Positions 25,047 to 41,709 of a DNA stretch of 64,000 nucleotides are shown here, piece after piece. The notes below the pieces were generated by a model. That model worked only from the letters and a program-made list of their open reading frames with translations, made no database searches and was not told the DNA's origin. Positions within the stretch are counted from its first letter, which is position 1, and each line of letters starts with the position of its first letter. A program made the translations under genes and the position numbers. Source of the DNA: an uncultured Kordiimonas sp. (GTDB lineage: Bacteria; Pseudomonadota; Alphaproteobacteria; Sphingomonadales; Kordiimonadaceae); the NCBI GenBank assembly GCA_947503575.1, contig CANNDZ010000001.1, positions 1,240,001 through 1,304,000 of the forward strand, in the 5' to 3' direction.

Positions 25047-26112
25047 AATTCACCTGAAAGACATTGCCCATAGTTATTTTCCTATCCCCGCTGGCGAGGC
25101 GGACTACGCGCTGAAGCCGATGGACCACGTTTGGCAGGATGGCAGCGCCTATGCGCTCCTGGGGCCGTCCGGCTGCGGCAAGACAACCCTTTTGAACATC
25201 ATATCCGGCTTGCTGAGGCCCAGCGAAGGGCAGGTTTTGTTTGACGGTAATGACGTAACTTCACGCGATACCGCTCACCGCAACATCGCGCAGGTTTTTC
25301 AGTTTCCCGTAATTTATGACACCATGACCGTATATCAGAACCTCGCGTTCCCCTTGAAGAACCGGGGCATGGATGTAGGCATGGTAAAGACCAGGGTGGA
25401 GGAGATTGCTGACCTGCTGGACCTGACACCCCGTTTAGGGGAGCGGGCGGCGGGTCTGTCGGCTGACGCAAAACAAATTATCTCACTCGGGCGCGGTCTC
25501 GTGCGCACAGACGTTAGTGCCATCCTGTTTGATGAGCCGCTCACGGTGATTGATCCGCATCTGAAATGGCAGATCAGGTCGAAATTGAAAGCTCTGCATC
25601 AGCAGTTCAATCATACCATGGTTTATGTCACCCACGACCAAACTGAAGCACTCACGTTTGCCGATAAAGTCGTCGTGATGAATGACGGGCAGGTATTGCA
25701 GGTCGGGACGCCGGAGGAATTGTTCGAGCGGCCAGCCCACACTTTCGTTGGCTACTTCATAGGCTCGCCAGGCATGAATTTTATTGATGCAACTGTTGAT
25801 GGCGGATCAGCCCGTGTGGGAGAGCAAAAGATCCTGTCGCCGTATGGGTGCGTGGATGGCCCGGTGCAAATTGGCATCCGGCCCGAGTTCTTGACGCTTG
25901 AGGACAGCAGCGCGGACGGCCTTGACTGCACCATTCAGGCGGTTGACGATTTGGGGCGTCATCGGATTGTGCGCACGCGTGTTAACGGTCAGGACGTAAC
26001 TGTTGTCGTCCCCGCAAGTAAAGCGATACCAGCGAGTGCCGCGACATTGAGGTTAGATCCACAGCATACGCTTTTGTTCCGCGATGGTTTTTTGCTGGAA
26101 GGGGCAGCCTGA
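25039..26112 (+). CDS. glpT: Glycerol-type ABC importer, ATP-binding protein 2 (GlpT-like)
   Basis: This is the second ATPase of the importer (357 residues from the GTG at 25039; GTG 25033 or ATG 25024 are alternatives). Walker A GPSGCGKTT, Q-loop FQFPVIYDTM, Walker B ILFDEPL and the H-loop YVTHDQTEAL are normal. The ABC signature is replaced by LSADAKQIISLGRGLV, lacking the SGGQ core. Its defect is complementary to that of the first ATPase, so the pair should form one canonical and one degenerate nucleotide site. A TOBE-type C-terminal domain follows. The stop overlaps the next gene (TGATG). Confidence 0.82.
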   Translation: MAEIHLKDIAHSYFPIPAGEADYALKPMDHVWQDGSAYALLGPSGCGKTTLLNIISGLLRPSEGQVLFDGNDVTSRDTAHRNIAQVFQFPVIYDTMTVYQNLAFPLKNRGMDVGMVKTRVEEIADLLDLTPRLGERAAGLSADAKQIISLGRGLVRTDVSAILFDEPLTVIDPHLKWQIRSKLKALHQQFNHTMVYVTHDQTEALTFADKVVVMNDGQVLQVGTPEELFERPAHTFVGYFIGSPGMNFIDATVDGGSARVGEQKILSPYGCVDGPVQIGIRPEFLTLEDSSADGLDCTIQAVDDLGRHRIVRTRVNGQDVTVVVPASKAIPASAATLRLDPQHTLLFRDGFLLEGAA

Positions 26113-26984
26113 TGCAAAAACAGAAAAATCAAAAAGCCTGGTTTTTGGTGTTGCCTGTTTTCCTGCTGGTGGCTTTTTCCGCCATCATTCCGCTGATGAC
26201 GGTTGTCAACTATTCGGTGCAGGACAGTTTTGGCAATAATGAGTTTTTCTGGGTTGGCAGCGAATGGTTTGTTGAGGTTTTGAATTCTGACCGCTTTCAT
26301 TCGGCCCTTGGTCGGCAACTGATGTTCTCAGGCATCATTCTGGCGATTGAAATTCCCTTGGGTATCTGGATTGCGTTGCAGATGCCGAAAAAGGGTTGGG
26401 CTGTGTCTGCATGTCTGGTGCTGATGGCACTACCGCTGCTGATCCCCTGGAATGTGGTGGGCACCATTTGGCAAATTTTTGCCCGTGAGGATATTGGCTT
26501 GCTGGGCCATACGCTCGCTGCGTTGGGCGTGGATTACAACTATACACAGGATACCCTGTCGGCCTGGATAACGGTTGTCGTGATGGATGTGTGGCACTGG
26601 ACCAGCCTCGTGGTCCTGCTGTGTTATGCCGGTTTGTCCTCCATACCTGACGCTTATTATCAGGCGGCGCGCATTGACGGGGCAGACCGCTGGGCCGTGT
26701 TCCGCCATATCCAGTTACCGAAAATGCAACGGGTGCTACTGATTGCTGTGCTGCTGCGGTTCATGGACAGTTTCATGATTTATACGGAACCGTTTGTGGT
26801 AACAGGCGGCGGGCCGGGTAACGCCACAACTTTCCTGTCGATTGATCTGGTGAAAATGGCGATTGGCCAGTTTGATGTGGGTCCTGCGGCGGCCTTTTCG
26901 CTCATCTATTTCCTGATCGTGCTGCTGATAAGCTGGGTTTTCTACACCGTGGTTACCGCATGGGACGGGGAGGGGCAGTCATGA
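26112..26984 (+). CDS. glpP: Glycerol-type ABC importer, permease 1
   Basis: This MalF/UgpA-type inner-membrane permease has 290 residues and about six membrane segments. The first is at residues 10-32 (VLPVFLLVAFSAIIPLMTVV). The cytoplasmic coupling motif of binding-protein-dependent permeases is present as YYQAARIDGADRWAVFRHIQLPKM (EAA loop). Starts and stops overlap both neighbours. It would form the translocation heterodimer with the permease encoded next. Confidence 0.85.
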   Translation: MQKQKNQKAWFLVLPVFLLVAFSAIIPLMTVVNYSVQDSFGNNEFFWVGSEWFVEVLNSDRFHSALGRQLMFSGIILAIEIPLGIWIALQMPKKGWAVSACLVLMALPLLIPWNVVGTIWQIFAREDIGLLGHTLAALGVDYNYTQDTLSAWITVVVMDVWHWTSLVVLLCYAGLSSIPDAYYQAARIDGADRWAVFRHIQLPKMQRVLLIAVLLRFMDSFMIYTEPFVVTGGGPGNATTFLSIDLVKMAIGQFDVGPAAAFSLIYFLIVLLISWVFYTVVTAWDGEGQS

Positions 26985-27793
26985 ACCGCTCTGGCCTGAA
27001 AAATATCCGCCTGACGCCTATTCTTTACATCATATTCCTGATGGTGCCGATTTATTGGCTTTTGACCATGTCGCTGAAGACCAACACGGAAATATTGGGT
27101 GGGTTTTCGCTCTGGCCAAAGGACCCCACGCTGGATAACTTCCGCACCATTTTGACGGATGCAAGCTGGTATTCAGGTTACATAAATTCCACCATTTACG
27201 TTGTGCTGAACACCATCATTTCGATTACTGTGGCACTGCCTGCGGCCTATGCTTTTTCGCGCTACCGGTTTCTGGGGGACAAACACCTGTTTTTCTGGCT
27301 GCTTTCCAACCGTATGGCGCCGCCCGCCGTATTTGTGTTGCCCTTTTTCCAGCTTTACAGCTCCATTGGCCTATTCGATACCCATATTGCGGTGGCGCTA
27401 GCGCATTGCTTGTTTAATGTGCCGCTGGCGGTGTGGATTTTGGAAGGGTTCATGTCCGGCGTGCCAAAGGAAATTGATGAAACCGCGCAAATCGACGGTT
27501 ACAGTTTCCCGGCCTTTTTTACCCGCATTTTCATGCCGCTTATCGCCAGCGGCATCGGTGTCGCGGCCTTTTTCTGCTTTATGTTCAGTTGGGTGGAGCT
27601 GCTGATCGCGCGAACGCTTACCAGTGTGGATGCCAAGCCCATCGCCGCTGTGATGACACGTACGGTTTCGGCGTCGGGGTTGGATTGGGGCGTGCTCGCG
27701 GCGGCGGGCATACTCACCATTGTGCCGGGCGCGATTGTTATCTGGTTTGTGCGCAACCATATCGCCAAGGGCTTTGCCCTTGGTAGGGTTTAA
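26981..27793 (+). CDS. glpQ: Glycerol-type ABC importer, permease 2
   Basis: This MalG/UgpE-type permease has 270 residues and an N-terminal YIIFLMVPIYWLLTMSLK segment. The EAA coupling loop is VPKEIDETAQIDGYSFPAFFTRIFMPL. The ATG at 26981 overlaps the stop of the preceding permease gene (ATGA). Eleven bases separate it from a short membrane-protein gene. In rhizobial glp operons this is also the permease before the small membrane proteins. Confidence 0.85.
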   Translation: MNRSGLKNIRLTPILYIIFLMVPIYWLLTMSLKTNTEILGGFSLWPKDPTLDNFRTILTDASWYSGYINSTIYVVLNTIISITVALPAAYAFSRYRFLGDKHLFFWLLSNRMAPPAVFVLPFFQLYSSIGLFDTHIAVALAHCLFNVPLAVWILEGFMSGVPKEIDETAQIDGYSFPAFFTRIFMPLIASGIGVAAFFCFMFSWVELLIARTLTSVDAKPIAAVMTRTVSASGLDWGVLAAAGILTIVPGAIVIWFVRNHIAKGFALGRV

Positions 27794-27804
27794 GGAGGGC
27801 CCTG

Positions 27805-28032
27805 ATGAAGGACCGTGTTCACTACTGGTTAACAGGCCCCCACCACATGTGGGTTGGTCTGATAACTATTTGGTTTTCTATGATATTCACGATTTTATTT
27901 GCAATTGGATGGGCTGGCACAGATCGATTTATGTTTGTGTGCCTTCTTTCCGGGTTTCTCTATTGTGTGAATCTGTGGATTTGGAGGTTCGAACTGCGTC
28001 GTTCCAATCAGAGTAATGAGAAACAAGAATGA
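27805..28032 (+). CDS. Small two-helix membrane protein of the importer operon
   Basis: The 75-residue protein has two hydrophobic segments, roughly residues 15-37 (MWVGLITIWFSMIFTILFAI) and 41-60, with a positively charged C-terminus (RFELRRSNQSNEK). A GGAGGG ribosome site precedes the ATG and the stop overlaps the DUF2160 gene start, so it is co-translated with the transporter. I recognise no characterised family. A helper or assembly role for the permease is inferred from position. Confidence 0.75.
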   Translation: MKDRVHYWLTGPHHMWVGLITIWFSMIFTILFAIGWAGTDRFMFVCLLSGFLYCVNLWIWRFELRRSNQSNEKQE

Positions 28033-28313
28033 TGGATCTTGGCTGGATGGGATGGACGCCTTTTACCGCCACTTTTTTTGCTGTGATCGCGTCCTTGCTC
28101 GTGACCATGACGGTGTGGGAAATTGCCCGCCCCGGCGGTGCACCTCGGCGCGGAGTGCTCGGGTTTGAAACCACGCGGGGTGACCGTTTGTTTGTGTCCT
28201 TGCTCGGCAGCGCCTTCATTCATTTGGGGTGGCTATTTTTTGGCGGCACAGACCTTTGGTGGGCGTTGGGTGTGTCTGTCCTCTACGCCTTCGCGGTCTT
28301 CAGGTGGGTTTAA
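28029..28313 (+). CDS. DUF2160 family small integral membrane protein
   Basis: The 94-residue protein has three hydrophobic stretches: TPFTATFFAVIASLLVTMTVWE, LFVSLLGSAFIHLGWLFF and WWALGVSVLYAFAVF. An RPGGAPRRGVLGFETTRGDRLF connector lies between the first two. This is the DUF2160 pattern, a family found beside glycerol-type ABC transporters, normally directly before the binding-protein gene. Here the binding-protein gene does not follow; the next plus-strand gene of the system is at 35,722. Function unknown; perhaps an accessory membrane subunit. Confidence 0.85.
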   Translation: MMDLGWMGWTPFTATFFAVIASLLVTMTVWEIARPGGAPRRGVLGFETTRGDRLFVSLLGSAFIHLGWLFFGGTDLWWALGVSVLYAFAVFRWV

Positions 28314-28328
28314 TAGACTTGAGCGGCG

Positions 28329-30617
28329 TCAGACAAAAAAGCCCTCTTTTGAGATTGGCAGTGTACGCACCCTGTGGCCTGTGACGGCAAAAATCGCATT
28401 GCATACCGCAGGCGCAAGAGGCGGTAGTGCGGGTTCGCCGACCCCAGTAGGTGGGTTGTCGCTTCGAATGAAATGCACGTCGACTATGGGCGCGCTCTCC
28501 ATACGCAACAGTGGATAGGTATCGAAATTGGCCTGCTCAATACGGCCCTGTTCCATGGTTATTTCCTGCTCTGCCATCACGCTCAGGCCGTCAATAACCG
28601 ATCCCTGAACCTGATTTTCAGCACCGCTCATGTTCACAACAGCGCCGATATCCGCCGCCACAGTAACCCGATGCACGGTCACCTGTTTCGTCTCATCAAC
28701 GCTGACGTCCGCCACTTCTGCAAAGTACCCGGCATGGCTGAAATGAAATGCCAGGCCGAGCGCACGGCCGGTGGGCAAAGTCTTGTTCCAGCCAGCTTTT
28801 TCCGCTGCAAGCTTGATGACGTCCACCGCCCGGCCTGTATTTAGGCCGTATGGGGTTCGGGGTGGTAGCCACCGTGGCTCACCCATGATTTCAAGTAGGA
28901 ATGCGAGATGGTCCCGCCCAGCAGCAGTCGAAAGCTCATGCAAGAAGCTCTGGATTGCCCATGCCCGCGTATTTGAGCCAGGCGCGCGCAATAAGCCGCA
29001 CCGCGTCCGCAAAGGCAGCAAAGACTGGCTCAGGCGAAAATTGTTTACCAGATGCGCTGGAAACTCGTGCTCAGGTTGGCGCGGCACTGCAGCGATCACG
29101 GGTTTTTCGCCGTCATTGCTGAAAGTGATTATATGATCCTGCCATGCGGTGAGCTTGCCGCCTTCATCCAGTCCGCCCATGAAAGCATGAAAACCTGCGG
29201 TACGATAAAAATCATGCTGCATGTCATCTTCGCGGGTCCATGTCAGTTTGACAGGTGCGTTGATCGCCCTGGAAATCGCCGCGGCTTCACAGGCGTAATC
29301 ATTGACCAACCGGCGTCCAAACCCACCGCCTACACGCGTTTGATGCAACATAACGGCGTCTTGGCTGATACCTAGCAGGCGGGCGACAGCGGTTACGCCG
29401 CGCGTGGGCGACTGAGTTGGTGCCCACAGCTCGACTGTGTCGCCTTTAAACCAGGCCGTGCAGTTTTGTGGCTCAAGGTTGGCGTGGGCGGCAAAATGAT
29501 AGGTATAGTAGGCACCTACAGACGTTGCTGCAGCGGCTGTTGCAGCGTCCGCATCGCCGGTTTCATGCAACACTTTCTTGCCTGGCTTGTCTTTCAGGCC
29601 TTCTGCTGCCTGCTGAAGTGCACTCCAGCTGTCCTTCGAAGCCTCCGCTTCATCCCACTCAACCCGTAACTGTTCTTTGGCCTGAAACGCCGCCCAGGTC
29701 GATGTGGCGACAATCGCCACACCCGGCATCAGTTCGAGGTCATTGCCGTTGCCGTCGAGAATAAAGGCATGCTTAACGCCGGGCAGCGCCAGAATTTCAT
29801 CCAAATTGGCACTCTTGGCCTTGCCACCGACGGCTGGGCATTTTTGATAAATAGCGAAAAGCATACCGGGCAGGGTCTGGTCGATGCCAAACAATGGCTT
29901 GCCGGTTACGACGGCGAGATTATCAACGCCGCCCTTGCGGGTACCAATGAGTGTAAAGTCCTCGCGGTCTTTCAGTCTCAAGCTCGCCGTCGGCGGCACG
30001 GGCAGAGTGGCTGCTTTTTCTACAAGCGTGCCGTATGCCGCCCGGCGGCCTGTTGGCTCATGAACAACAAAGCTTTTTTTTGTGGTGCACTCAGTGGCGG
30101 GCACTTGCCATTCTATGGCTGCCGCCTGCACCAGCATGTGCCGAGCTGCCGCTCCGACCTCTCGCATGCTGTTCCAGTTGCGAGCGATAGAACGCGAGCC
30201 ACCAGCATTTTGGCGGCCAAACAGCGTTACGTTGATTGGCGACTGTTCCACCTTCACATCGGCCCAGTCGGCGTCCAACTCTTCGGCGATAATCATTGGC
30301 ATCGCGGTTTTGATACCCTGACCTATCTCGGGGTTTTTCGAATAGATATAGATGGTGCCTTCGGGCGTAATTCGGATATAGGCATTGAGCGCCGTCTCCG
30401 CACCCGGTGAGGCGGCCTTTGCCCTGCCTTCCAAGCTAAAGGCCAGGACAAGCCCCATGCCTGCCGCACCGGCTACTTTCAGGAATGAGCGGCGACCCAT
30501 GCCGGCGTTCTGCTGTGGGCTTGACATTTCGTTCTGCTCGTTTTGGCCAGCGCTCGCCAAAGGCTCGATTTCGTCCAAAAGTTCTTCAAGGCTGCAGCTT
30601 GCTGTGCGTTCGGTCAT
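28329..30617 (-). CDS. Tat-exported molybdenum hydroxylase large subunit (IorB-like aldehyde/N-heterocycle oxidase)
   Basis: This 762-residue protein has a twin-arginine signal (GRRSFLKVAGAAGMGLVLAF, from about residue 40) behind an unusually long N-region. An ATG at 30527 would give a shorter leader. Molybdopterin-binding motifs of the isoquinoline 1-oxidoreductase beta family are present: EIGQGIKTAMPMIIAEELDA, RVGGGFGRRLVNDYACEA and the C-terminal catalytic-glutamate motif TGVGEPALPPLAPAVCNAI. The enzyme would hydroxylate aldehydes or aromatic heterocycles in the periplasm. No [2Fe-2S] partner subunit or cytochrome c gene is adjacent, so it is an orphan here. Substrate unknown. Confidence 0.87.
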   Translation of the reverse strand: MTERTASCSLEELLDEIEPLASAGQNEQNEMSSPQQNAGMGRRSFLKVAGAAGMGLVLAFSLEGRAKAASPGAETALNAYIRITPEGTIYIYSKNPEIGQGIKTAMPMIIAEELDADWADVKVEQSPINVTLFGRQNAGGSRSIARNWNSMREVGAAARHMLVQAAAIEWQVPATECTTKKSFVVHEPTGRRAAYGTLVEKAATLPVPPTASLRLKDREDFTLIGTRKGGVDNLAVVTGKPLFGIDQTLPGMLFAIYQKCPAVGGKAKSANLDEILALPGVKHAFILDGNGNDLELMPGVAIVATSTWAAFQAKEQLRVEWDEAEASKDSWSALQQAAEGLKDKPGKKVLHETGDADAATAAAATSVGAYYTYHFAAHANLEPQNCTAWFKGDTVELWAPTQSPTRGVTAVARLLGISQDAVMLHQTRVGGGFGRRLVNDYACEAAAISRAINAPVKLTWTREDDMQHDFYRTAGFHAFMGGLDEGGKLTAWQDHIITFSNDGEKPVIAAVPRQPEHEFPAHLVNNFRLSQSLLPLRTRCGLLRAPGSNTRAWAIQSFLHELSTAAGRDHLAFLLEIMGEPRWLPPRTPYGLNTGRAVDVIKLAAEKAGWNKTLPTGRALGLAFHFSHAGYFAEVADVSVDETKQVTVHRVTVAADIGAVVNMSGAENQVQGSVIDGLSVMAEQEITMEQGRIEQANFDTYPLLRMESAPIVDVHFIRSDNPPTGVGEPALPPLAPAVCNAIFAVTGHRVRTLPISKEGFFV

Positions 30618-30758
30618 ATCTCGTTGTGTCCGGATAATGTTTTCTTTGCGTGTACAATCAATGGGCTGCTGCCCCTATCCAAGATCGACGAAGCGTGCGC
30701 CGTACGGCGTGAACAGAAAGTGTATACGAGAACGAGAAAAATGAGAGTCTGCGCCGGG

Positions 30759-31007
30759 CTAAAACTTCGGGGCCTGCACGATGTAAGCGCCGATCTCCGT
30801 TTCGCCAACGGCTTTACTTGCTTCAAGCCGGTGAACCCCTTCAATAAGGACCATGCGCCCTTTTCCTTCACGCACCTTGATGGGTTTCATGTCGTCGCCT
30901 GCCAGCATTTGCTCAACTGTCGCGTCAACCTTGTCTTGCTGCAGTTCGTTGCGCCGCGCCGTTGGCACATAAATATCGTCAATCTTGACCGCGACAATTT
31001 TCATCAT
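30759..31007 (-). CDS. Small ParB/sulfiredoxin-fold protein
   Basis: The 82-residue protein is a stand-alone ParB-N/Srx-like domain: an N-terminal VKIDDIYVP strand, an M.A.D..KPIKVREGKGRMVLIEGVHRLEASKAVGE core and a short end. The EGVHRLEA segment corresponds to the nucleotide-binding G.HR..A box of ParB-type domains. No helix-turn-helix is attached, so chromosome segregation is unlikely. It belongs to a run of small minus-strand genes whose neighbours are also uncharacterised. A role as a small CTPase or nuclease-like factor is speculation. Confidence 0.75.
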   Translation of the reverse strand: MMKIVAVKIDDIYVPTARRNELQQDKVDATVEQMLAGDDMKPIKVREGKGRMVLIEGVHRLEASKAVGETEIGAYIVQAPKF

Positions 31008-31185
31008 GGCTCATGCCTCTCCCCATCTGTGGCCAAAACTGTCGCATAGAATAGGCTCGGTATCTAATCTCTTTTTACTGTGGACTGGAAATGCCGCCGA
31101 AACCAAGATGCAGCAACTCTATGGTCTTAACGACGGCGCATGTAGTTCGAGGCGGGGAATGATCAGCTCTTGTTTGGGTCGTCTG

Positions 31186-31347
31186 CTAACGCGTCTTCTC
31201 GCAGCGCTTGGCTTGCGCAATGGCATCCTTAAGAGAAGTATAGCGGAAAGTATCAAAAATATAATAGTCCACCGGTTCACGTGTGATGCCGTATTTTGCC
31301 ATTTCTTCCGCGTCCTGGGACTGCTGCACTTCAGTGTTTTGGGTCAT
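31186..31347 (-). CDS. Very short conserved-looking protein (53 residues)
   Basis: A frame of 53 codons encodes MTQNTEVQQSQDAEEMAKYG followed by an EPVDYYIFDTFRYTSLKDAI core and a basic end (AQAKRCEKTR). A strong AGGAGG ribosome site lies nine bases upstream of the ATG at 31347; a second in-frame ATG at 31353 is closer. The MAKYGIT..PVDYY pattern is one I recall from small alphaproteobacterial proteins of unknown function. It lies in the same direction as its small neighbours. Existence is well supported by the ribosome site; function unknown. Confidence 0.7.
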   Translation of the reverse strand: MTQNTEVQQSQDAEEMAKYGITREPVDYYIFDTFRYTSLKDAIAQAKRCEKTR

Positions 31348-31423
31348 CGTCATTCTCCTCCTAAAAAATCAAATAGTTGAGCACCTTTTTGCATTTTTTG
31401 AAACAGGTGCTGAGGCCGTCATA

Positions 31424-31642
31424 CTAACTTGAGGAAGAATGCCCACGCCGATGATTGTTCTGGCGGGTTGCTTCCAATGGAACACCATTTTTCCAAGTGT
31501 TTTTACATTTGCATCGACGGCATATGCGTTCGCCGACCCAAGTGCTTTCAAACGGAACCTCACATGTCAAACAAGGCCTGAGTCTGGCGCCACTTGATGT
31601 GGCGGTAGGCTTGGTTGATTCTACTTTATTCGTCTGGGTCAT
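31424..31642 (-). CDS. Small zinc-ribbon protein
   Basis: The 72-residue protein has a CLTC...C(R)RC arrangement: RPCLTCEVPFESTW then GERICRRCKCKN, a likely four-cysteine zinc ribbon. A Thr/Ser-rich N-terminal tail and a basic C-terminal tail flank it. The ATG at 31642 overlaps the stop of the 103-residue gene upstream (ATGA), supporting co-translation. A frame at 31369-31563 overlapping its 3' part lacks any such pattern and is not counted. Possible nucleic-acid or protein binding; no known function. Confidence 0.72.
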   Translation of the reverse strand: MTQTNKVESTKPTATSSGARLRPCLTCEVPFESTWVGERICRRCKCKNTWKNGVPLEATRQNNHRRGHSSSS

Positions 31643-31950
31643 GACTTTTTCTCCTCTGCTGCATAAAGTCGCGTCAAAGCATCCCTGGTTTGCACAAGAA
31701 GCTTTTTGCGTGTCCCACTTAGAGCGCCGGACTCGGCTGCGAATACTTCGAGTAAGTAAAGTGCCCGTGCACCGACCTCAGGCCAGGTTGATGCTGAAGA
31801 TTTCAGGTATGACCGTTCAAGCTCTTGCTGCTGTTCCTTTAAGGCATGTGTACGCGCCAAAAACTCTACAATGTCGTGGCATCGTGCTTCGGTCGCCTTC
31901 TGGGCGTTCGCGCCACGATATTTGTCAAGGTCAACGGGTAGGTCAGGCAT
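31639..31950 (-). CDS. Small helical protein of unknown function
   Basis: The 103-residue product is predicted to be mainly helical: a KATEARCHDIVEFLARTHALKEQQQ stretch, a TWPEVGARALYLLEVFAAE helix and a C-terminal LVQTRDALTRLYAAEEKK. The TWPE.....YLL..FA pattern resembles short uncharacterised alphaproteobacterial proteins. It overlaps the zinc-ribbon gene by four bases. No signal peptide or membrane segment is seen. Confidence 0.68.
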   Translation of the reverse strand: MPDLPVDLDKYRGANAQKATEARCHDIVEFLARTHALKEQQQELERSYLKSSASTWPEVGARALYLLEVFAAESGALSGTRKKLLVQTRDALTRLYAAEEKKS

Positions 31951-32041
31951 TTTCTCATTCCCTCTTCGGGCGGGTTAATCGGAGATAACACGAGCCGGCT
32001 TTAGCGACGCGGATATCATCCGTTGCAATGGTTTGGCGGTA

Positions 32042-32956
32042 TTAAGACGCCACGCATGTGTCCCGACGTTTTTGAAACTTCGGATCACAGTCCCAGCCGT
32101 TGCCAGAAACGCTGATGTGAGCATTTGCAGGTAATCGGATGGCTTCGCATGCGTCGCCGCGGGCGGCAAATCCTCGCAAACAGCTCCAGCCTTCCCGGTA
32201 GGATGCCGTGTCGAGATATCCGTTCAGGGGAACCTTGATTTCATTGCATGCGCCACGTTTTTTTTGAAATCCACGCTCGCAGGCCCAACCGTCGCCCGAG
32301 GAGTCATTGTTGAGATATCCGTTGGCGGGTACCTCAATTGGCGCGCAAGTATTTCCATTCGCGCGAAACCCTCGTCCACAGGCCCAGCCTACAGACCAAG
32401 ATGAGTCCGAAAAATAGGCGTTTTCGGGCAATTCGATTAGAATACAACTTTCGCCTTCCTTGCGGTAGGTTCGGTTGCAGGCCCAGTCAGGGTTTGCACT
32501 ACTTGTCGTGAGGTGGGCATTTTCGGGTACGGGTACCAATACGCATGCTGCTCCCTCGCGGCGATAGCCCCTTTTGCATGCCCAGCCAGTTCCATACAGG
32601 GAGGAGGCAAGAAATCCGTTTTCGGGTACCTGGATTTCATAGCAACTATCTTGTCTGTGCATATAGCCGCGCAGGCATTCCCAACCGCGTCCATAAGTTG
32701 TTGTTGTGAAGTAAGCATTTACGGGCAGTGCAATCTCGGTGCAGCTCGAATCATTGGCACGGTACCCAAGATCACAGGTCCAACCTCTGCCATAATTGTT
32801 GGCCCGGGCATTTGCGGGAACAGCGTTATCTGAAACTTGTCCCTGAGCGATTGACGCAGACGACGTCACCGCAGCCAGTGTCGCTGTGAAGGCAGCTAAA
32901 CCTATAAGGCGGACCAAACGCGCCATGCTTGTTTTAAGGTATATTGATGGTTTCAT
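32042..32956 (-). CDS. Exported protein made of eight cysteine-pair tandem repeats
   Basis: After a signal peptide (about residues 10-38) the 304-residue protein consists of eight tandem units of about 32 residues. The consensus unit is (V/L)P.NA(Y/H)(L/F)..SS...GW.C.RGY...G.(S/A)C..I. Each repeat has one Cys after the GW pair and a second about 12 residues later, so eight disulfides are plausible in the periplasm or outside. An AGAGGAAAT ribosome site precedes the ATG at 32956. Similar repeats occur in hypothetical proteins of other proteobacteria; I know of no function. An adhesive, carbohydrate-binding or structural role is possible but unproven. Confidence 0.85.
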   Translation of the reverse strand: MKPSIYLKTSMARLVRLIGLAAFTATLAAVTSSASIAQGQVSDNAVPANARANNYGRGWTCDLGYRANDSSCTEIALPVNAYFTTTTYGRGWECLRGYMHRQDSCYEIQVPENGFLASSLYGTGWACKRGYRREGAACVLVPVPENAHLTTSSANPDWACNRTYRKEGESCILIELPENAYFSDSSWSVGWACGRGFRANGNTCAPIEVPANGYLNNDSSGDGWACERGFQKKRGACNEIKVPLNGYLDTASYREGWSCLRGFAARGDACEAIRLPANAHISVSGNGWDCDPKFQKRRDTCVAS

Positions 32957-33049
32957 TTGATTTCCTCTGGTCGGAACTTACGTCCGCAAAAGTCGGTGCG
33001 GGCCGCATACTCATTATTGGCGCGCATGAACGGTGCATCCGGGCAGTTT

Positions 33050-33319
33050 TCAATTCCTTTGCAGGCCGTCCCGTGCGAGTGCGGCATCCAGTTCACGAGG
33101 GTCACGCAGTGTGATAACGTCGGACTGACCGGGATGGCGCGGATCCGGTGGCAGATAGAGCGAGACCTGTGTGCGTCGATGGGCAGTAAAAGTAAGGCCG
33201 TCGAGAATGTCTTCTTCAATCACCACCTTATAAGACCCGGCGGGCAGGGTTTTCGCGTAACCGCTGAACGAAAAACAGTTCTGAAATGTCACGATTTTTT
33301 CGGTTGTCCGGTTTTTCAC
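33050..33319 (-). CDS. Small conserved hypothetical protein
   Basis: The 89-residue protein begins MKNRTTEKIVTFQNCFSFSG and continues with LPAGSYKVVIEEDILDGLTF, a HRRTQVSLYLPP strand and an ELDAALARDG end. This pattern, FxxPFxLxG...LP.G.Y.V..DEE...GL....YRR, matches a small alphaproteobacterial family I have seen only as hypothetical. It is predicted to be mostly beta and has no signal peptide. The overlapping frame 32953-33219 begins inside it in another phase and is treated as a shadow, though its last 30 residues fill the gap to the repeat-protein gene. Confidence 0.75.
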   Translation of the reverse strand: MKNRTTEKIVTFQNCFSFSGYAKTLPAGSYKVVIEEDILDGLTFTAHRRTQVSLYLPPDPRHPGQSDVITLRDPRELDAALARDGLQRN

Positions 33320-33405
33320 GATGAATTCCTGGATGACACCGCTTGTGTCAGGGGGAGAAGGAACGCCTTCCCACCCCCTTGAACCAATTCACTGAATCAG
33401 TTCAG

Positions 33406-33424
33406 AAAGCCGATTGTCGGCTTT
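33406..33424 (-). terminator. Hairpin at the 3' end of the 41-residue gene
   Basis: AAAGCCGA-TTG-TCGGCTTT forms a perfect eight-pair hairpin that overlaps the TAA of the short gene. On the minus strand it is not followed by a long T-run. A run of eight T lies on the plus-strand side. A weak terminator or an RNA stability element is possible. Confidence 0.4.
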
Positions 33425-33548
33425 AAGTTTTTTTTGGCTCTTCTGCGGGCGTCTTTTCGACTGCCTTGTCGGTCGCGTCAGCTGGCTTTGTATCCGGTTT
33501 TGCCGGGCCTGATGCGGTTGTTCCTTTGGGTAGGTCTTTATAGGACAT
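33423..33548 (-). CDS. Very short Lys/Pro/Ala-rich protein (41 residues)
   Basis: A 41-codon frame encodes MSYKDLPKGTTASGPAKP, then a disordered, charged run with repeated KP.D/A.DK.VEK elements and a PAEEPKKT end. An AAAGGG ribosome site lies seven bases before the ATG at 33548; an in-frame ATG at 33563 has none. Short Ala/Lys/Pro proteins of this type occur in alphaproteobacteria. Low complexity makes similarity weak evidence, so existence is moderately supported and function unknown. Confidence 0.55.
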   Translation of the reverse strand: MSYKDLPKGTTASGPAKPDTKPADATDKAVEKTPAEEPKKT

Positions 33549-33599
33549 CAAATGCCCTTTCATGGATGCGGCAATAATCTGCCGCTAAGCACAGCCATG

Positions 33600-33695
33600 A
33601 TCGGCTGCATGCCTATATATGGGGATTAGCAATAAAATTACAACAGCGTATTATATATTAACAAAATTTATATGTTTATTGTAATATTATTTCTA
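33600..33695. promoter_or_regulatory. AT-rich intergenic stretch, probable promoter of the small-gene run
   Basis: This stretch is far richer in A and T than the rest of the window, with runs such as TATTATATATTAACAAAATTTATA. It lies upstream of the minus-strand small genes and downstream of the DUF885 gene. On the minus strand a TATAAT-like box is present (AATATATAATACG). It may be a promoter or a boundary of acquired DNA. Confidence 0.4.
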
Positions 33696-33828
33696 ATCAG
33701 CCGCAACCCTAACCGGAAACTGGGGTTTGGGCCGGGTAGTTCCCATTCTCATACGGGTTCCATCCCTCTTTGGTGAGCCTGAACCCTCACGCCTGTCAGC
33801 GGCCATCCCTTTCAGGGAGCCAACACCG

Positions 33829-35508
33829 TCACTCGTCAGGTATTGGCTCAAACTCGAAAAAGGCGTCAATTTCATCTGTGTCACCCAACATTTCATAACG
33901 AATAAGGCTTACGGGCAGTCGCCCCGCCGCCATGAAGGCATCATGAAAAGCTTTCAGGTCAAATGCAGGCCCATCGCGCAGCCTCATTTCCGCCAGCAGG
34001 TTTTGAATTTGCAGGTTGCCGATGGTGTACCCCAGCCCATAGCCTGGCGGACTGCGCAGGTAAATCTCGGCATCCACTTGGGCGACGCTCTGGTCCAACC
34101 AAGGGGAGCCGTTTTTCATTTGGTCCGCCGCTTGCTGGATGCTCAACTCATTTAGCTGCATGCCAATATCTGCCCAAACTCGTGTGGCGCGGAAAATACC
34201 AAACAGATACATCAGCTCATGAACGCGGGGCTGTGCGTCCAGCACCCCGGCGCGCATCATCGGCTCTTCCAGATAGACGCCCCAGCCTTCTACCCTCACA
34301 CCATCTGAAATATGTGAGCGGATAGGGTGGTGGGACCGCTTCGCAAACCAGCCGTCATACCGGTGGCCTGGAATAACCGCATGTAAATGGTCCGGGTGCG
34401 GGTCTCTGAACTGCACCTTCTCCCAAAAATTCAGACCGTTTGGCCGCTCGATAAAGGGTGCGTTATAACCAAATGTCTCAAAATCCGGTGTGTCTTCTGG
34501 CAGCGTAATGATGCCCGCTGACTTCAACCACTCACGGATGTTTTTGTCGGTTGCCCTCAGGCGCTTCTCATAGTCCTGTGCGTTGCTTGCTGGCTCAAGG
34601 ACAGGAAGCTTCTGGTTGCGCTGTTCTTCCAGCGCGAGGAACGCAACAAGCCGCTTCCATTCCCGGTCCGCGAGCGCGGTCAGCTCTTCCGAAGTCCAGG
34701 GTAGAAGCTTTGCATGGCGCATATACCAGTCAAACCGCGCGCGTCCCACGCCTGCCTGCGCCGTCATGGCTGGTTCGGCGGCATCCAGCCAACCTGCGAA
34801 GTCCTGCACAGCCGCCAACGCCTCTTCCACCACCGGCACCAGTGCGGGCTGCTGCGCCCTTGCGCGCGCCAGCAAGTCCTCATACCAGCCGATAACCCCC
34901 ATGGGCGGCACCGCTCGATAGGGGTGGCCGTGGCCAACCCCGTCTGGCTGGCGCATGTTAAAGCGGGCCAGCATCAGATAGTCCGCGGCGCCTTCTGTAA
35001 GCGTTGATTTCGCAAGCGCAACAATTTCCGGCACAGCCTCCAGTCGCTGGCGGATGCGGTGCAGTCGGTCGCCGGTTGCCGTCATGTCAGAAAAGGACAG
35101 GCGCAGTAGCGGGTCTACATAGGTCCCGGGGTCCCGTGCCCAGGGGCGACTGACCTCAAGGTAAAAACGCTGGGCGGCAAACTGTGCTTTCACCGCCAGA
35201 TAATCAACTTTTTGCGCCACCGGCCATCCCGCGGGATCAAGCGCCCGCAATCGGGTTTCCAGTGCGTCCAGGGCCGCAGACCGTGCCTGCACCTCGTCCG
35301 CGCCGTAGTTCACCACACCATAGGGCGCTTCGGGGTCATCAAACGCGGCGGACCATGCCTTTGATGCCCGGACCGTGCGAAAGTCATCAAAAATTTCAAT
35401 CAGGTCGGCGTAGCCACTTGTTGCCTGAGGGGTTTGGCCAATAGCCGCAGTGGCAAAGACGTTGGCGATAAGCTGAACGCAAAGGTACCCGATAAAAAAG
35501 CGCTTCAT
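33829..35508 (-). CDS. DUF885 family exported protein with altered metal motif
   Basis: The 559-residue protein has a signal peptide (about residues 1-24) and the DUF885 fold, related to M32-like metallopeptidases. The family's H-E-x-x-P-G-H motif appears here as HAVIPGH (about residues 376-382), so the catalytic Glu is replaced by Ala. Downstream EGWGVYLEEPM, which carries another ligand in the family, is kept. PPGYGLGYTIGNLQI and the DGPAFDLKAFHDAFMAAGRLPVSLI end are typical. It may be inactive as a peptidase or act differently. It stands alone, divergent from the binding-protein gene. Confidence 0.85.
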   Translation of the reverse strand: MKRFFIGYLCVQLIANVFATAAIGQTPQATSGYADLIEIFDDFRTVRASKAWSAAFDDPEAPYGVVNYGADEVQARSAALDALETRLRALDPAGWPVAQKVDYLAVKAQFAAQRFYLEVSRPWARDPGTYVDPLLRLSFSDMTATGDRLHRIRQRLEAVPEIVALAKSTLTEGAADYLMLARFNMRQPDGVGHGHPYRAVPPMGVIGWYEDLLARARAQQPALVPVVEEALAAVQDFAGWLDAAEPAMTAQAGVGRARFDWYMRHAKLLPWTSEELTALADREWKRLVAFLALEEQRNQKLPVLEPASNAQDYEKRLRATDKNIREWLKSAGIITLPEDTPDFETFGYNAPFIERPNGLNFWEKVQFRDPHPDHLHAVIPGHRYDGWFAKRSHHPIRSHISDGVRVEGWGVYLEEPMMRAGVLDAQPRVHELMYLFGIFRATRVWADIGMQLNELSIQQAADQMKNGSPWLDQSVAQVDAEIYLRSPPGYGLGYTIGNLQIQNLLAEMRLRDGPAFDLKAFHDAFMAAGRLPVSLIRYEMLGDTDEIDAFFEFEPIPDE

Positions 35509-35721
35509 GGTATGTCCTCTTGAAGGGGGCCTGTTTGAATGGTTTTGGGATGAAAGCCCATGGTAGCTAGCATGGCTGCCGGTGTATAGATTGAAATGTG
35601 GGATGACAGGGCAGGTTTATGGTCACTTCTGTTCTTGCCCTTCTTTGCTGGGTCTGTTTGTATTTTGCCCTACGTCACAATTTCAAGGCGTCACAGTTTC
35701 AAGGGTAGGGAGAGAGTGCCT

Positions 35722-37440
35722 GTGAAATATCTTGCAACAGTTGCTGCAGCGCTGCTGGCGTGTGTGCCTGCAACCGCGAATAATCAAGCCGCGCAAAAAT
35801 GGATAAGCCAGGAATTCAGCCAGTCTACGCTGACACCCGAGCAGCAGATGGCAGAAATGCGATGGTTCGCGAAAGCGGCGGAGCCCTATAAGGGCATGAC
35901 GATCAATGTGGTGTCTGAAACGCTGACAACGCACGAGTATGAAGCCCGCGTGCTCGCCGAGGCCTTTTTTGAAATCACCGGCATTCGGGTAAACCACGAT
36001 TTGATCGGCGAAGGCGATGTGGTTGAAAAACTGCAAACTCAGATGCAGTCTGGCCGCAACATCTACGACGCCTACATCAACGACAGTGACCTGATTGGCA
36101 CGCATTACCGCTACCAGCAGGTGCGCAACCTGTCTGACTGGATGACAGGCGAGGGCGCTGATGTCACCAATCCCGGGCTTGATATTGATGACTTCATCGG
36201 CAAAAGTTTTACCACTGGCCCCGACGGTAAACTGTATCAGTTGCCGGACCAGCAATTCGCCAACCTTTATTGGTTTCGCTACGACTGGTTCACAGACCCA
36301 GCGCTGAAAGCGCAGTTTAAGGAAAAATACGGTTACGATCTGGGTGTGCCAGTAAACTGGTCGGCGTACGAAGATATCGCTGCCTTCTTCACCAAGGATG
36401 TCGGTGAAATTGACGGCGAAAAAGTATACGGCCACATGGATTACGGCAAGAAAGACCCGTCGCTTGGCTGGCGCTTCACCGACGCGTGGCTCTCGATGGC
36501 GGGTGCGGGCGATGTGGGCCTGCCAAACGGTAAGCCGGTGGACGAGTGGGGTATCCGCGTTGATGGCTGTCGCCCGGTGGGCTCAAGCGTCACGCGCGGC
36601 GGGGCTACCAATGGCCCGGCGGCTGTTTATTCTGTTGAAAAATACATCGACTGGCTCAAAAATTATGCGCCCCCCACTGCGGCAGGCATGACGTTTTCTG
36701 AGGCGGGGCCTGTCCCTGCACAAGGGGCAGTAGCGCAGCAAATTTTCTGGTATACGGCCTTTACAGCCGACATGGTCAAACCCGGCATTGCTGTCATGGA
36801 CGGCGAGCGGCCCAAGTGGCGCATGGCCCCCAGCCCGCGCGGTGTGTATTATGACGAGGGCATGAAGCTGGGGTACCAGGACACGGGTGCCTGGACGTTG
36901 ATGAAATCAACCCCCGTGGACCGCGCCAAAGCCGCTTGGCTGTATGCGCAATTTGTGGTCTCGAAAACCGTGTCCTTGCGCAAAAGCCATGTTGGCCTGA
37001 CCTTCATTCGTGAAAGCGATATCTGGGATGAAAGCATGACTGAACGCGCGCCGTCATTGGGTGGCCTTGTGGAATTTTATCGGTCTCAGGCGCGGGTTTT
37101 ATGGACGCCGACAGGTACCAACATCCCGGACTATCCGCGCCTTGCGCAGCTGTGGTGGCAGGACATTGGCGATGCGATTTCGGGCGACAAGACCCCGCAG
37201 GAAGCGATGGATAGTCTGGCTAACCAGCAGGACCGGATTTTGCGGCGGCTCGAGCGGGCGGGCGTGCAGGGCGAATGCGGGCCCAAGCTTAATACACCCC
37301 GCGATGCGGCTTATTGGCTGAACCAGCCGGGCGCCCCAAAGGCAAAGCTTGATAACGAAAAGCCACAGGGCATAACGGTGGATTACGACGAGCTTCTGAA
37401 ATCATGGGCCGCTGTGCCAAGGGCAGGTGCCAGTGAGTAG
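35722..37440 (+). CDS. glpV: Glycerol-type ABC importer, substrate-binding protein (GlpV-like)
   Basis: This 572-residue extracellular solute-binding protein starts at the GTG at 35722 (GGGAGAG site upstream) with a signal peptide ending near VPATA. A family-1 solute-binding domain follows, with NVVSETLTTHEYEARVLAEAF, QMQSGRNIYDAYINDSDLIG, LPDQQFANLYWFRYDWF and the characteristic GATNGPAAVYSVEKYIDWLK. FSEAGPVPAQGAVAQQIFWYT comes next. These match the large binding protein of the GlpSTPQV-type importers. The other subunits are encoded at 23,973-28,313, so the operon is split by about 7.4 kb. Glycerol as ligand is inferred. Confidence 0.82.
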   Translation: MKYLATVAAALLACVPATANNQAAQKWISQEFSQSTLTPEQQMAEMRWFAKAAEPYKGMTINVVSETLTTHEYEARVLAEAFFEITGIRVNHDLIGEGDVVEKLQTQMQSGRNIYDAYINDSDLIGTHYRYQQVRNLSDWMTGEGADVTNPGLDIDDFIGKSFTTGPDGKLYQLPDQQFANLYWFRYDWFTDPALKAQFKEKYGYDLGVPVNWSAYEDIAAFFTKDVGEIDGEKVYGHMDYGKKDPSLGWRFTDAWLSMAGAGDVGLPNGKPVDEWGIRVDGCRPVGSSVTRGGATNGPAAVYSVEKYIDWLKNYAPPTAAGMTFSEAGPVPAQGAVAQQIFWYTAFTADMVKPGIAVMDGERPKWRMAPSPRGVYYDEGMKLGYQDTGAWTLMKSTPVDRAKAAWLYAQFVVSKTVSLRKSHVGLTFIRESDIWDESMTERAPSLGGLVEFYRSQARVLWTPTGTNIPDYPRLAQLWWQDIGDAISGDKTPQEAMDSLANQQDRILRRLERAGVQGECGPKLNTPRDAAYWLNQPGAPKAKLDNEKPQGITVDYDELLKSWAAVPRAGASE

Positions 37441-37484
37441 CACCGTGGTCAAACTTAAGGGGGTGAAACTGGGGGGCAAACGGC

Positions 37485-39689
37485 ATGACGCCTGAACGTG
37501 AAGAGGCTGAGGAACGGTCCCTCATGGGGCGTTTTTTACGTGGCTTTGGCCTGTTTGTAGCGGCAAGCCTGATGGTTGTAGGGTTTTATCTGTATGACCC
37601 CTTGCCAGACAATCCACCTGCGTCTGCGTTGTCGGCAGCAGCATCCCGTTACGATGCCGAAATAATCCGCGACAACTGGGGTGTGCCGCACATTTTTGGT
37701 AAGCGGGACGCTGACGTATCGTTCGGCCTCGCTTACGCTCACGCCGAAGATGATTTTGAGACCATTCAGGAAGTTGTTGCCGCTACGCGCGGTGTGCTGG
37801 CGCGCTATCGCGGCGCGGACGCGGCGCCCACTGATTATGTGGTGTCGTTTCTGAACGTTTGGCCCACCATGGATGCGCAGTATGCAAACGGTGTTCCGGC
37901 AGAGGTGAAAGCCATCGCAGAGGCTTATGCCGCTGGCGTTAACTTGTATGCTGCCGAAAACCCTGACGCAACCTGGGCTGGTCTTGCACCGTTTCGGGCC
38001 GAAGATGTTGTTGCCGGGTTCATATTTAAAACACCGTTTTTTTATGGTTTGGATAAAGTGTTGCAGGGGTTGTTTGAAGGCGATGACCCCCGCGAAGTTG
38101 CCCGCGCCATATCGCTAGCGCCGACCCATAAAAACAACGCTTTTACCTTGGCACCCAAAACCGAGGCTGAGCTGGGTTCTAACGCCATTGCTGTGTCGGC
38201 AGAGCGTGGAGGTGACGGTGTTACCCGTTTGCTGATCAATTCACACCAGCCGCTCTCCGGCCCCGTAGCATGGTATGAGGCGCAACTGTCTTCCGAGCAA
38301 GGCCTTAATATAACAGGCGGTTTGTTCCCGGGAACGCCATTGATTTTGCATGGATTTAACGATCATTTGGGCTGGGCCAACACAGTTAACCACATTGATT
38401 TGTCAGACGTTTATGTGCTGACACGCAACCCTGATAACCCGATGCAATACAAACTGGACGGCGAATGGGTTGATTTTGAAGTGACGGAAGTGACGCTTCC
38501 GGTCAAGCTGTTTGGACCGTTTGTGTACCCGGCCAAACGGCTTCTTCTAAGGTCAAAACATGGCCCGGTTGTTGAGCGGGATGGCGCGGCTTATGCGCTG
38601 CGCTACACAGGGATGGGCGAGGTACGCCAGCTTGAGCAATACTACCGGTTTAATCAGGCGAAAAGTCTGGAAGACTTCATGAATGCGATGGCCATGAACG
38701 CACTACCCAGCATCAACTATGTGTATGCCGATAAAGAGAACAACATCGCCTTCATCCATAACGCACAATACCCGAACCGGGTTGATGGTTGGGACTGGTC
38801 CAAAGACATTCCGGGCGATCGGTCTGATCTTATTTGGCAAGGGTACCGCCCGTTTGCGCAGGTGCCAAAGCTTATCAACCCGCAATCGGGGTTGCTGTTC
38901 AATGCTAACAACACGCCCTATACGGCCACGGATGGTCCGGATAACCTGGCCCCGGCGATGTTCCCGGACTCTATGGGGTTGGCGACCAACCAAACGAACC
39001 GGTCGTTGCGGTTGATGGAATTAACCGACGGTACATCGCTTATCGACCGTGAGCGGTTGCTGGAAATCAAGTTTGATGATGATTATTCGCCGCTGTCGCG
39101 CCCGGCGCGCCTGCGTGACCTCATGGTCGGCATGGATTGGAGCGCCCACGCGGACCTACTGCCTGCTGTTGAGCATATGAAAGACTGGGACCTCTCTACC
39201 GATGTGGACAACCGGCATGCGGCGCTGGTGATTATGGCGCTGCGCAAGCAAAGCCGGAACGGTGCAGATGATGAAAGCCCAGCGGCAATGGCGGCGGCGC
39301 TGCGCTGGGCGGTGGACTATTTAACCACACATCACGGTGGCATCGACGTGCGCTGGGGTGATGTTAGCAGATTGGTGCGCGGTGATCTGAATATGGAAAT
39401 AGACGGCGGTCCAGACGTCTTGCGCGCCATTTATGCCGCGGGTGACTATGAAGGCGGTATTGCGCCAGCCACTCACGGCGACACCTGGATTGGGCTTGTG
39501 GAGTGGGATGCAGAAGGCCGCCAAACGGCTGACGTTATCCATAACTATGGCAGCGCGACGCTGGATGCGACCTCCCCCCATTATGCAGATCAAGCGCCGT
39601 TGTTCGCGACCAAAAAATGGCGTCGGGCGCTGACCACGCGCGAGGCAGTGCTAGCGAACGCTACGCGGGTTTATCATCCTGGTAAGTAG
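37485..39689 (+). CDS. Penicillin acylase family protein (peptidase S45, possible acyl-homoserine lactone acylase)
   Basis: This is a 734-residue precursor with an N-terminal membrane segment (residues 18-38). The alpha-chain start is YDAEIIRDNWGVPHIFGKRDADVSFGLAYAHAEDDF. An autoprocessing site is at Gly-Ser in ELGSNAIAVS; the new N-terminal Ser232 would be the catalytic nucleophile of this Ntn hydrolase. NSHQPLSGP, GFNDHLGWANTVNHID and the C-terminal THGDTWIGLVEWD are family motifs. It would act in the periplasm on N-acyl amides. Substrate (lactone, beta-lactam or acylated amino acid) cannot be told. It follows the binding-protein gene by 44 bases. Confidence 0.9.
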   Translation: MTPEREEAEERSLMGRFLRGFGLFVAASLMVVGFYLYDPLPDNPPASALSAAASRYDAEIIRDNWGVPHIFGKRDADVSFGLAYAHAEDDFETIQEVVAATRGVLARYRGADAAPTDYVVSFLNVWPTMDAQYANGVPAEVKAIAEAYAAGVNLYAAENPDATWAGLAPFRAEDVVAGFIFKTPFFYGLDKVLQGLFEGDDPREVARAISLAPTHKNNAFTLAPKTEAELGSNAIAVSAERGGDGVTRLLINSHQPLSGPVAWYEAQLSSEQGLNITGGLFPGTPLILHGFNDHLGWANTVNHIDLSDVYVLTRNPDNPMQYKLDGEWVDFEVTEVTLPVKLFGPFVYPAKRLLLRSKHGPVVERDGAAYALRYTGMGEVRQLEQYYRFNQAKSLEDFMNAMAMNALPSINYVYADKENNIAFIHNAQYPNRVDGWDWSKDIPGDRSDLIWQGYRPFAQVPKLINPQSGLLFNANNTPYTATDGPDNLAPAMFPDSMGLATNQTNRSLRLMELTDGTSLIDRERLLEIKFDDDYSPLSRPARLRDLMVGMDWSAHADLLPAVEHMKDWDLSTDVDNRHAALVIMALRKQSRNGADDESPAAMAAALRWAVDYLTTHHGGIDVRWGDVSRLVRGDLNMEIDGGPDVLRAIYAAGDYEGGIAPATHGDTWIGLVEWDAEGRQTADVIHNYGSATLDATSPHYADQAPLFATKKWRRALTTREAVLANATRVYHPGK

Positions 39690-39699
39690 GGGGAGGAAG

Positions 39700-41657: not shown

Positions 41658-41709
41658 CTGGTCCCCCTGGGTTCTGATTGGCCAAGCCTAAGCCCATTCT
41701 GGCGGGCAT

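Follow-up and report, generated by a model that had tools for sequence, protein, structure and literature searches.

What holds together the seven small minus-strand genes, here called g1 to g7, that stand amid transporter genes in an uncultured Kordiimonas sp. (assembly GCA_947503575.1, contig CANNDZ010000001.1, positions 1,240,001–1,304,000; this stretch of 64,000 nucleotides is the window, and coordinates below count from its first letter)? A first-pass annotation, made from the sequence alone, placed the genes in one block at 30759–33548 and proposed either a small-protein system or an acquired island. Comparison with related genomes resolves the seven genes into a six-gene unit, g2–g7, with g1 as its neighbour, and not into one unit. 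Whether window 31190–33644 is an operon for protein and envelope stress tolerance that is self-contained and moves horizontally is, judged from sequence, an evenly balanced matter, and the evidence on both sides is set out below.

Six-gene unit and its neighbour g1

All seven announced open reading frames (ORFs) are present on the minus strand (span 30759–33563), and relative to G025, a related Kordiimonas and one of the 29 genomes of the family (the host being G000), nonsynonymous divergence (dN) is well below synonymous divergence (dS) in each of them: the dN/dS values are 0.11/0.91 for g1, 0.17/1.25 for g2, 0.26/1.47 for g3, 0.24/1.64 for g4, 0.26/2.14 for g5, 0.12/1.16 for g6, and 0.33/1.01 for g7. 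All seven are under purifying selection and are therefore real genes.

Window 25103–30699, with the ABC transporter, permease, DUF2160, and molybdopterin oxidoreductase genes, aligns to G025 C1 1,280,001–1,303,722, as do g1 (30759–31046) and most of 35646–42000, at 70–86% DNA identity for flanks and g1 (78–79% for longer pieces up to 38057). This stretch of G025 has no matches to g2–g7 or to DUF885, and carries other ORFs between the shared flank landmarks. Window 31196–32820 and 33068–33643 align to G025 C1 near 812.8–815.3 kb; the six-gene unit, promoter region included, thus lies there some 470 kb from the orthologous transporter flanks, with the identical order g7-g6-g5-g4-g3-g2. Given where the alignment ends in G025, the shared unit is bounded by the predicted –35 element (33644) on one side and by the end of g2 on the other, and an extent of window ~31190–33644, comprising promoter, leader, and then g7-g6-g5-g4-g3-g2, is well supported by these alignments. 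Since the unit with its promoter occupies another site in G025, we regard it as a mobile stretch. The proposal of a system or acquired island is thereby upheld for six genes and dropped for g1: the ParB/Srx mini-protein gene, listed in the first-pass annotation as part of the block, remains in G025 with the transporter locus that has no block, and synteny excludes it as a system member. It is present in 11 of 29 family genomes, adjoins the block only in G000, and is 5.4 kb away in G012; when the flanks were first searched, with a set of loci that was too small, g1 alone had matched.

Among the 29 family genomes the full order is seen only in G000 and G025, while at least one of the six genes occurs in G002, G004, G005, G009, G010, G012, G013, G017, G018, G022, G026, and G027 (g3 and g6 were searched for in 147 genomes of the order). 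The block had also been said to interrupt the transporter locus. It is indeed flanked by ABC-transporter genes, but the alignments show the locus to vary in both genomes; it holds other genes in G025, and the block is not its sole interruption. The variable site spans window 28332–35508, from the DUF2160 gene to a 614-amino-acid (aa) gene; the oxidoreductase and g1 are common to G025, and the rest differs.

Co-occurrence of the families

Gene neighbourhoods across Alphaproteobacteria, the check that the first-pass annotation had proposed, place relatives of g2–g6 together repeatedly, with the order shuffled; lack of co-occurrence, which it had named as evidence against its proposal, is thus not what was found. 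A scan for g2 with one genome per species (84,980 species) yields 25 loci, 20 of which have at least one of g3–g6 in the fetched flanks (13/18 among those newly seen). Of 385 class-level genomes, 11 carry g2 and 37 carry g6, and g6 is present in 4 of 10 non-self g2 genomes versus 32 of 374 genomes without g2 (Fisher p 0.009). A g2–g5 relative lies within ~1.5 kb of g6 at 10/29 non-self loci versus none of 38 controls drawn from the family (groES, 28 loci; g1, 10; unmatched for class); more g6 loci were found than the 29 fetched. At the ten non-self class-level g2 loci, the genes within 1.5 kb include NhaA (three loci), the 159-aa family hypU (four), g6 (two), g5 (one), and cold-shock (one), and two loci have none of the sought families.

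In G349, g6 and g2 are fused in a single 247-aa ORF, which may be taken as a direct hint of joint action. The g4/g3 overlap seen in the window also occurs in Paracoccus and Roseovarius plasmids: on Paracoccus pPZ03, the end of each gene in g6-g4-g3 overlaps the start of the next, and on Roseovarius pRIdsm_03 the row is g5, transglutaminase, a small ORF, g6, and g4-g3 (in both, g3 is an unannotated ORF called here). At L091 (G004:C1:1777000–1796999) there is a tandem g2-g6-g2-g6-g6 followed by HflK and HflC, which suggests local duplication of the g2/g6 pair.

Plasmid relatives are found for g4 (10 records), g6 (83), g2 (7), and part of g5 (27); the named ones are nearly all from Alphaproteobacteria, the exception being one Shewanella record (g5). 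We examined 17 plasmid stretches, hand-picked from many listed (two are plasmids of one strain). In the 15 annotated ones the neighbours are Crp/Fnr (8), transglutaminase (8), HflK/HflC (5), GroEL (4), cold-shock (3), NhaA (2), and fatty-acid desaturase (2), and 13 stretches have at least one of the counted families HflK/HflC, GroEL/ES, NhaA, cold-shock, transglutaminase, and Crp/Fnr. The K. marina locus reads NhaA, SLC13, g2, g7, g6, g5, a 103-aa ORF, HflK, HflC; here, NhaA, HflK, and HflC are 73, 76, and 81% identical, respectively, to the plasmid copies, and for HflK/HflC, where those copies come from Rhodobacterales, this likeness would fit transfer across orders.

Promoter and RNA leader

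The block end first given, 33548, cut off a promoter and a leader that together cover 33540–33644. The promoter, 33617–33644 on the minus strand, is RpoH (sigma-32)-like: GTTGTAATTTTATTGCTAATCCCCATAT (33644–33617) reads as GTTGTA-N14-CCCCATAT and agrees at 12 of 14 positions with CTTGAA/CCCCATAT, the sigma-32 consensus. We scored CTTGAA-N12–17-CCCCATAT (14 positions) in the 110 nt preceding the leader. At least 11/14 is reached by 10 of 16 leader operons; among 311 other genes at these loci one does so, and among shuffles 0.9%. As a positive control, groES of the family (200 nt scored; 28 loci, after one of the 29 proved too short) gives at least 11 in 15/28 and at least 10 in 26/28. Measured against a –35 CTTGAA and a –10 CCCCATNT at sigma-32 spacing, the evidence points both ways: 10 of 16 leader operons score 11 or more, but in a form unlike that of family groES, missing from 22 plasmid regions, and with a sigma-70-like site near. 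RpoH control in Kordiimonadales is plausible on this sequence evidence; outside Kordiimonadales it is unsupported. Consensus searches upstream of 116 genes gave one strict EcfG site (0.45 expected) and five relaxed ones (3.5 expected).

The leader (33540–33588, minus strand) runs across the g7 start codon, with a covariance-model (R1) E value of 3e-14, the site being a seed of the model. It was reached through a modest excess of de novo palindromes upstream and subsequent reading of those regions. The layout is a hairpin P1 (33568–33585, minus strand; GCGGCA-N6-TGCCGC), the Shine–Dalgarno sequence GAAAGG, and a short hairpin P2 (33543–33557, minus strand; GGGCAT-N3-ATGTCC) that encloses the start codon. 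P2, as GG[AG]CAT-N3-ATGTCC, is kept in eight seed sites, where it is too invariant for covariation to be judged, and is lost in several members.

With 150 first-look candidates scored per genome, nine sites at E <1e-6 are found in 7 of the 29 family genomes; seven of them are model seeds, and the new ones are in G027 and, as a second site, in G013. In the present genome the site before g7 is the only match of the model up to E 0.5 (150 of 570 first-look candidates scored). Two more leader sites at other loci, L113 and L100 (minus), have E <0.002, and matches below significance occur at corresponding places in L090, L094, L089, and L125. The gene following the leader at the 16 sites is a g7-like microprotein in 11 cases and g2 in three (L082, L083, L085); L100 (plus) leads into an 11-codon short open frame, and L125 into an ambiguous ORF. 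Weak matches in other genomes at E ≥0.005 (25 of 34 rows) were discarded: none of the eight that were read precedes a g7-like gene.

Across the alignment of 16 sites, standard pairs make up 93.8% of P1 and double-changed cells number 10, a count that none of 500 shuffles reaches, while slid versions have at most 3; the structure model itself contributed eight of the 16 rows, and the eight seeds alone have two double-changed cells, not above shuffles. That the leader is a structured cis-acting RNA with compensatory changes in P1 is well supported by the aligned sites. The start codon is predicted to be mostly paired at 25 °C in 10/16 leaders versus 26/117 control genes. We also considered an RNA thermometer and rejected it: no melting is predicted and the Shine–Dalgarno sequence is not hidden more than in controls, and for this reason we call the element a structured leader. 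Rfam yields nothing at E 5 within window 30500–34000 and nothing for the leaders at seven further loci, where the eight matches at E 1 all fall in L113 off its leader, below gathering scores.

Protein families and predicted folds

The first-pass annotation held that no gene matches a known pathway. As to families, Pfam, Rfam, and PADLOC assign none apart from an EGF-like one for g5; g1 has a ParB-like PHROG. Across Pfam and NCBIfam, nothing exceeds the cut-off for the seven proteins except EGF_MSP1_1 for g5; PADLOC matches 0/7 at E 0.1; and in a Pfam scan of the family alignments (g6, 21 members; g3, 10; g4, 10; g2, 11) no family has more than one matching member. A search of solved-structure sequences with g3, g4, and g6 returned nothing useful.

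In operon order, g7 (33423–33548, minus strand) encodes a 41-aa microprotein, MSYKDL..., which would have 46 aa with an upstream ATG as its start; it is rich in Lys, Pro, Ala, and Thr and probably disordered, and most relatives begin with M[ST][YF]K[DEQ][LMF]. The g6 gene (33050–33319, minus strand; GTG start) encodes 89 aa; the model (mean pLDDT 77, pTM 0.59) consists of beta strands and a helix at the C-terminus, and the fold has no match in PDB at E 0.001. Longer g6 relatives (L083, L104, L165, L075, L076) bear [ED][DN]EGM after the conserved domain, and the window's g6 does not.

The product of g5 (32042–32956, minus strand; 304 aa) has a signal-like N-terminus and tandem EGF-like repeats with two invariant Cys each. 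It matches EGF_MSP1_1 (PF12946) at E 2.8e-8 (34 bits, cut-off 27) and, weakly, the malaria MSP1 EGF among solved-structure sequences (E 0.009). The predicted model (mean pLDDT 82, pTM 0.46) is an N-terminal helix followed by a chain of short-strand repeats; the best Foldseek matches in PDB are the EGF-module proteins NEL/NELL2 (E 5e-4 to 9e-4, TM-scores <0.2), with TNFR lower down. A second exported repeat protein of the g5 type is encoded in the host genome (G000:C3:95323–96036, L098), with no other g2–g7 relatives in 20 kb.

The next two genes overlap, as first annotated: g4 (31639–31950, minus strand; 103 aa, helical, with a conserved N-terminal LD..R and a conserved central W.E motif) and g3 (31424–31642, minus strand; a 72-aa zinc-ribbon protein, CxxC...CxxC, with four conserved Cys) share 4 bp. 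The latter resembles one PHROG family of unknown function (E 4e-6); its Cys were read from an alignment that leaves out L084, a misframed row. Last comes g2 (31186–31353, minus strand; 55 aa, or 53 aa with the second ATG), with the signature YGI...FRYTSLxDAVAQAKR; its likeness to short stretches of designed PPR proteins (E 3e-13 for the repeat protein taken as a whole, none of the stretches passing individually) was taken as chance.

Outside the unit, g1 (30759–31007, minus strand; 82 aa) has an N-terminal ParB/Srx domain, being ParB-like by PHROG 3264 (E 4e-11); NCBIfam matches are below cut-off and no Pfam match exceeds it. Its 82 aa stop after the N-domain, without helix-turn-helix and dimer domains, and no parA partner is among the ten flanking proteins scanned.

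Favoured reading and its alternatives

In the reading that we favour, the six genes would be transcribed together as one transcript, activated by an RpoH-type sigma factor upon heat or protein damage, and the leader hairpin would tune the output of g7, or of g2 where the leader precedes g2. The products of g6 and g2, and of g4 and g3, would be two pairs of small cytosolic adaptors feeding protein or membrane quality control, on islands that encode these via HflK/HflC–FtsH and GroEL; g7 may be a disordered shield or tag protein, and g5, once exported, a disulfide-stapled rod in the envelope. A stress function is suggested by the neighbours (HflK/C, GroEL/ES, NhaA, cold-shock, desaturase) together with the RpoH-like promoter in one lineage. 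More tentatively, and with somewhat less than even confidence, we put forward an undescribed alphaproteobacterial stress system: five families without a Pfam model at cut-off (g2, g3, g4, g6, g7) and an exported EGF-like rod, as a kit moving between chromosome and plasmid, with expression in Kordiimonadales from a new, portable promoter-plus-RNA leader that can precede either g7 or g2. Literature searches, judged by titles and abstract openings, gave nothing on this island; "undescribed" is meant relative to these searches and to Pfam, NCBIfam, PHROGs, PADLOC, and Rfam only. If true, Alphaproteobacteria own a transferable stress kit of tiny proteins annotated merely as "hypothetical protein", an analogue of the enterobacterial heat and chlorine resistance island built of other parts, and several small families on rhizobial and marine plasmids would gain first functions, along with a new RNA leader.

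A number of observations weigh against the operon reading. As to linkage, 5/25 g2 loci have none of g3–g6, g6 stands without g2–g5 nearby in 19/29 loci, the leader-plus-g7 sites of G027 and G013 (second site) have no g2–g6 relative within 1.5 kb, and 2/15 annotated plasmid stretches (Rhizobium T136, Azospirillum B510) have none of the counted neighbours. As to mobility, the ten flanking proteins include no integrase, the window has no tRNA, and the ends of the block lack direct repeats (30500–34000 searched). As to heat control, the promoter consensus was picked after some leader operons had been viewed, and the 16 sites are mutually related; family groES promoters owe their scores chiefly to a perfect –35 CTTGAA and differ at the –10; a sigma-70-like site, TAAACA-17-TATAAT (33678–33650, 10/12 matches), lies just upstream of the RpoH-like one; and 0/22 upstream regions of plasmid islands (14 g6, 2 hflK, 6 crp) reach score 10, which confines heat control, if it exists, to Kordiimonadales. 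Nor, over the range 25–55 °C, does the leader melt in the folding predictions; the mean unpaired fraction of the Shine–Dalgarno sequence rises from 0.43 to 0.52 in the 16 leaders versus 0.44 to 0.52 in 117 control genes.

The genes might instead be cargo that gathers at plasmid and island hot spots, with separate minor roles and shared vehicles but no joint function. Gene order and content do differ among loci, g6 is often alone, as just counted, and transposases are present in several plasmid stretches; however, accretion would leave the g4-g3 overlap and order, preserved from Kordiimonas to Rhodobacterales, the g6-g2 fusion, the six-gene order preserved in G025, and the single promoter and leader region before all six genes to be accounted for, and we consider it unlikely. 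A redox or low-oxygen module under Crp/Fnr, with no heat role and with the RpoH-like promoter as a look-alike or a later Kordiimonas addition, is in our view improbable. It would agree with the lack of RpoH-like sites in the plasmid islands and with the frequent regulator gene (8/15 annotated stretches), at most 2 kb upstream of g6 in six. A 16-bp motif, ACTGATCnAnAGCAGT, also recurs ~50–65 bp before the crp gene in four islands (L079:5633, L129:5832, L233:10827, L234:8751) and is perhaps the operator of the island regulator. Yet the excess of FNR boxes upstream of the 116 genes is not clear (1 seen, 0.4 expected; Crp, 0), and the island Crp/Fnr finds no match at Kordiimonas loci. Small genes, patchy distribution, and plasmid carriage could also point to a toxin–antitoxin or anti-phage defence island, which we hold to be very improbable given the empty PADLOC search and the poor fit of an exported EGF-like protein and chaperone neighbours. 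Phage records have no g3 or g6 relatives, and viral contigs have no g2, g4, or g5 relatives (one or two peptide patterns each), a result that also led us to reject a phage or viral origin.

Comparison with known systems

Like the transmissible locus of stress tolerance (tLST), the island is a movable cluster with a chaperone, an antiporter, small or periplasmic proteins, and exported components. The core genes given for tLST, which confers heat and chlorine resistance, are sHsp20, clpK, sHsp, pscA/pscB (YfdX), kefB, and degP (PMC8407380). Here, none of the window's six genes matches a tLST core family, the small proteins being of other families; sHsp20, ClpK, PscA/B (YfdX), HdeD, KefB, and DegP do not appear in the annotation of the 15 plasmid stretches, for which the table of genes has gaps; and the island relatives listed are nearly all alphaproteobacterial, one Shewanella plasmid (g5) lying outside.

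With the RpoH regulons of Alphaproteobacteria, the leader operons share TTG at –35 (PMC3441632), a C-run before an AT-rich –10, and the usual spacing. Their –35, however, is mostly TTGTAA, compared with CTTGAA in family groES, and the element is absent from the 22 plasmid regions. ROSE-type and other heat-shock RNA thermometers are short 5' leader hairpins next to the start codon of a stress gene. The window leader is likewise short, with hairpins near the start codon, but differs from ROSE and fourU elements in having no Rfam match, no special hiding of the Shine–Dalgarno sequence, and no predicted melting. The classical EGF module has six Cys forming three disulfides. Although g5 has the EGF_MSP1_1 match and EGF-module fold matches with low TM-scores, it differs from EGF/TNFR repeat proteins in being bacterial, with two Cys per repeat and a signal-like N-terminus.

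Genomic setting

The host genome is 3.6 Mb in size. The unit has a G+C content of 51.8% versus 54.8% in the window, where 1.9% of overlapping stretches of equal length are equally low. The AT-rich stretch before the genes, mentioned in the first-pass annotation, is real, with 46% G+C at 33564–33828. Among the ten flanking proteins scanned against Pfam are ABC_tran, two BPD_transp_1, and DUF2160; the 614-aa ORF at 35596 has no Pfam match at E 0.001 and looks like a solute-binding protein. Terminator-like sites on the minus strand were not found inside the block. A hairpin, AAAGCCGA...TCGGCTTT, is located at the g7 stop codon (window 33406–33424); only its plus strand has a T-run.

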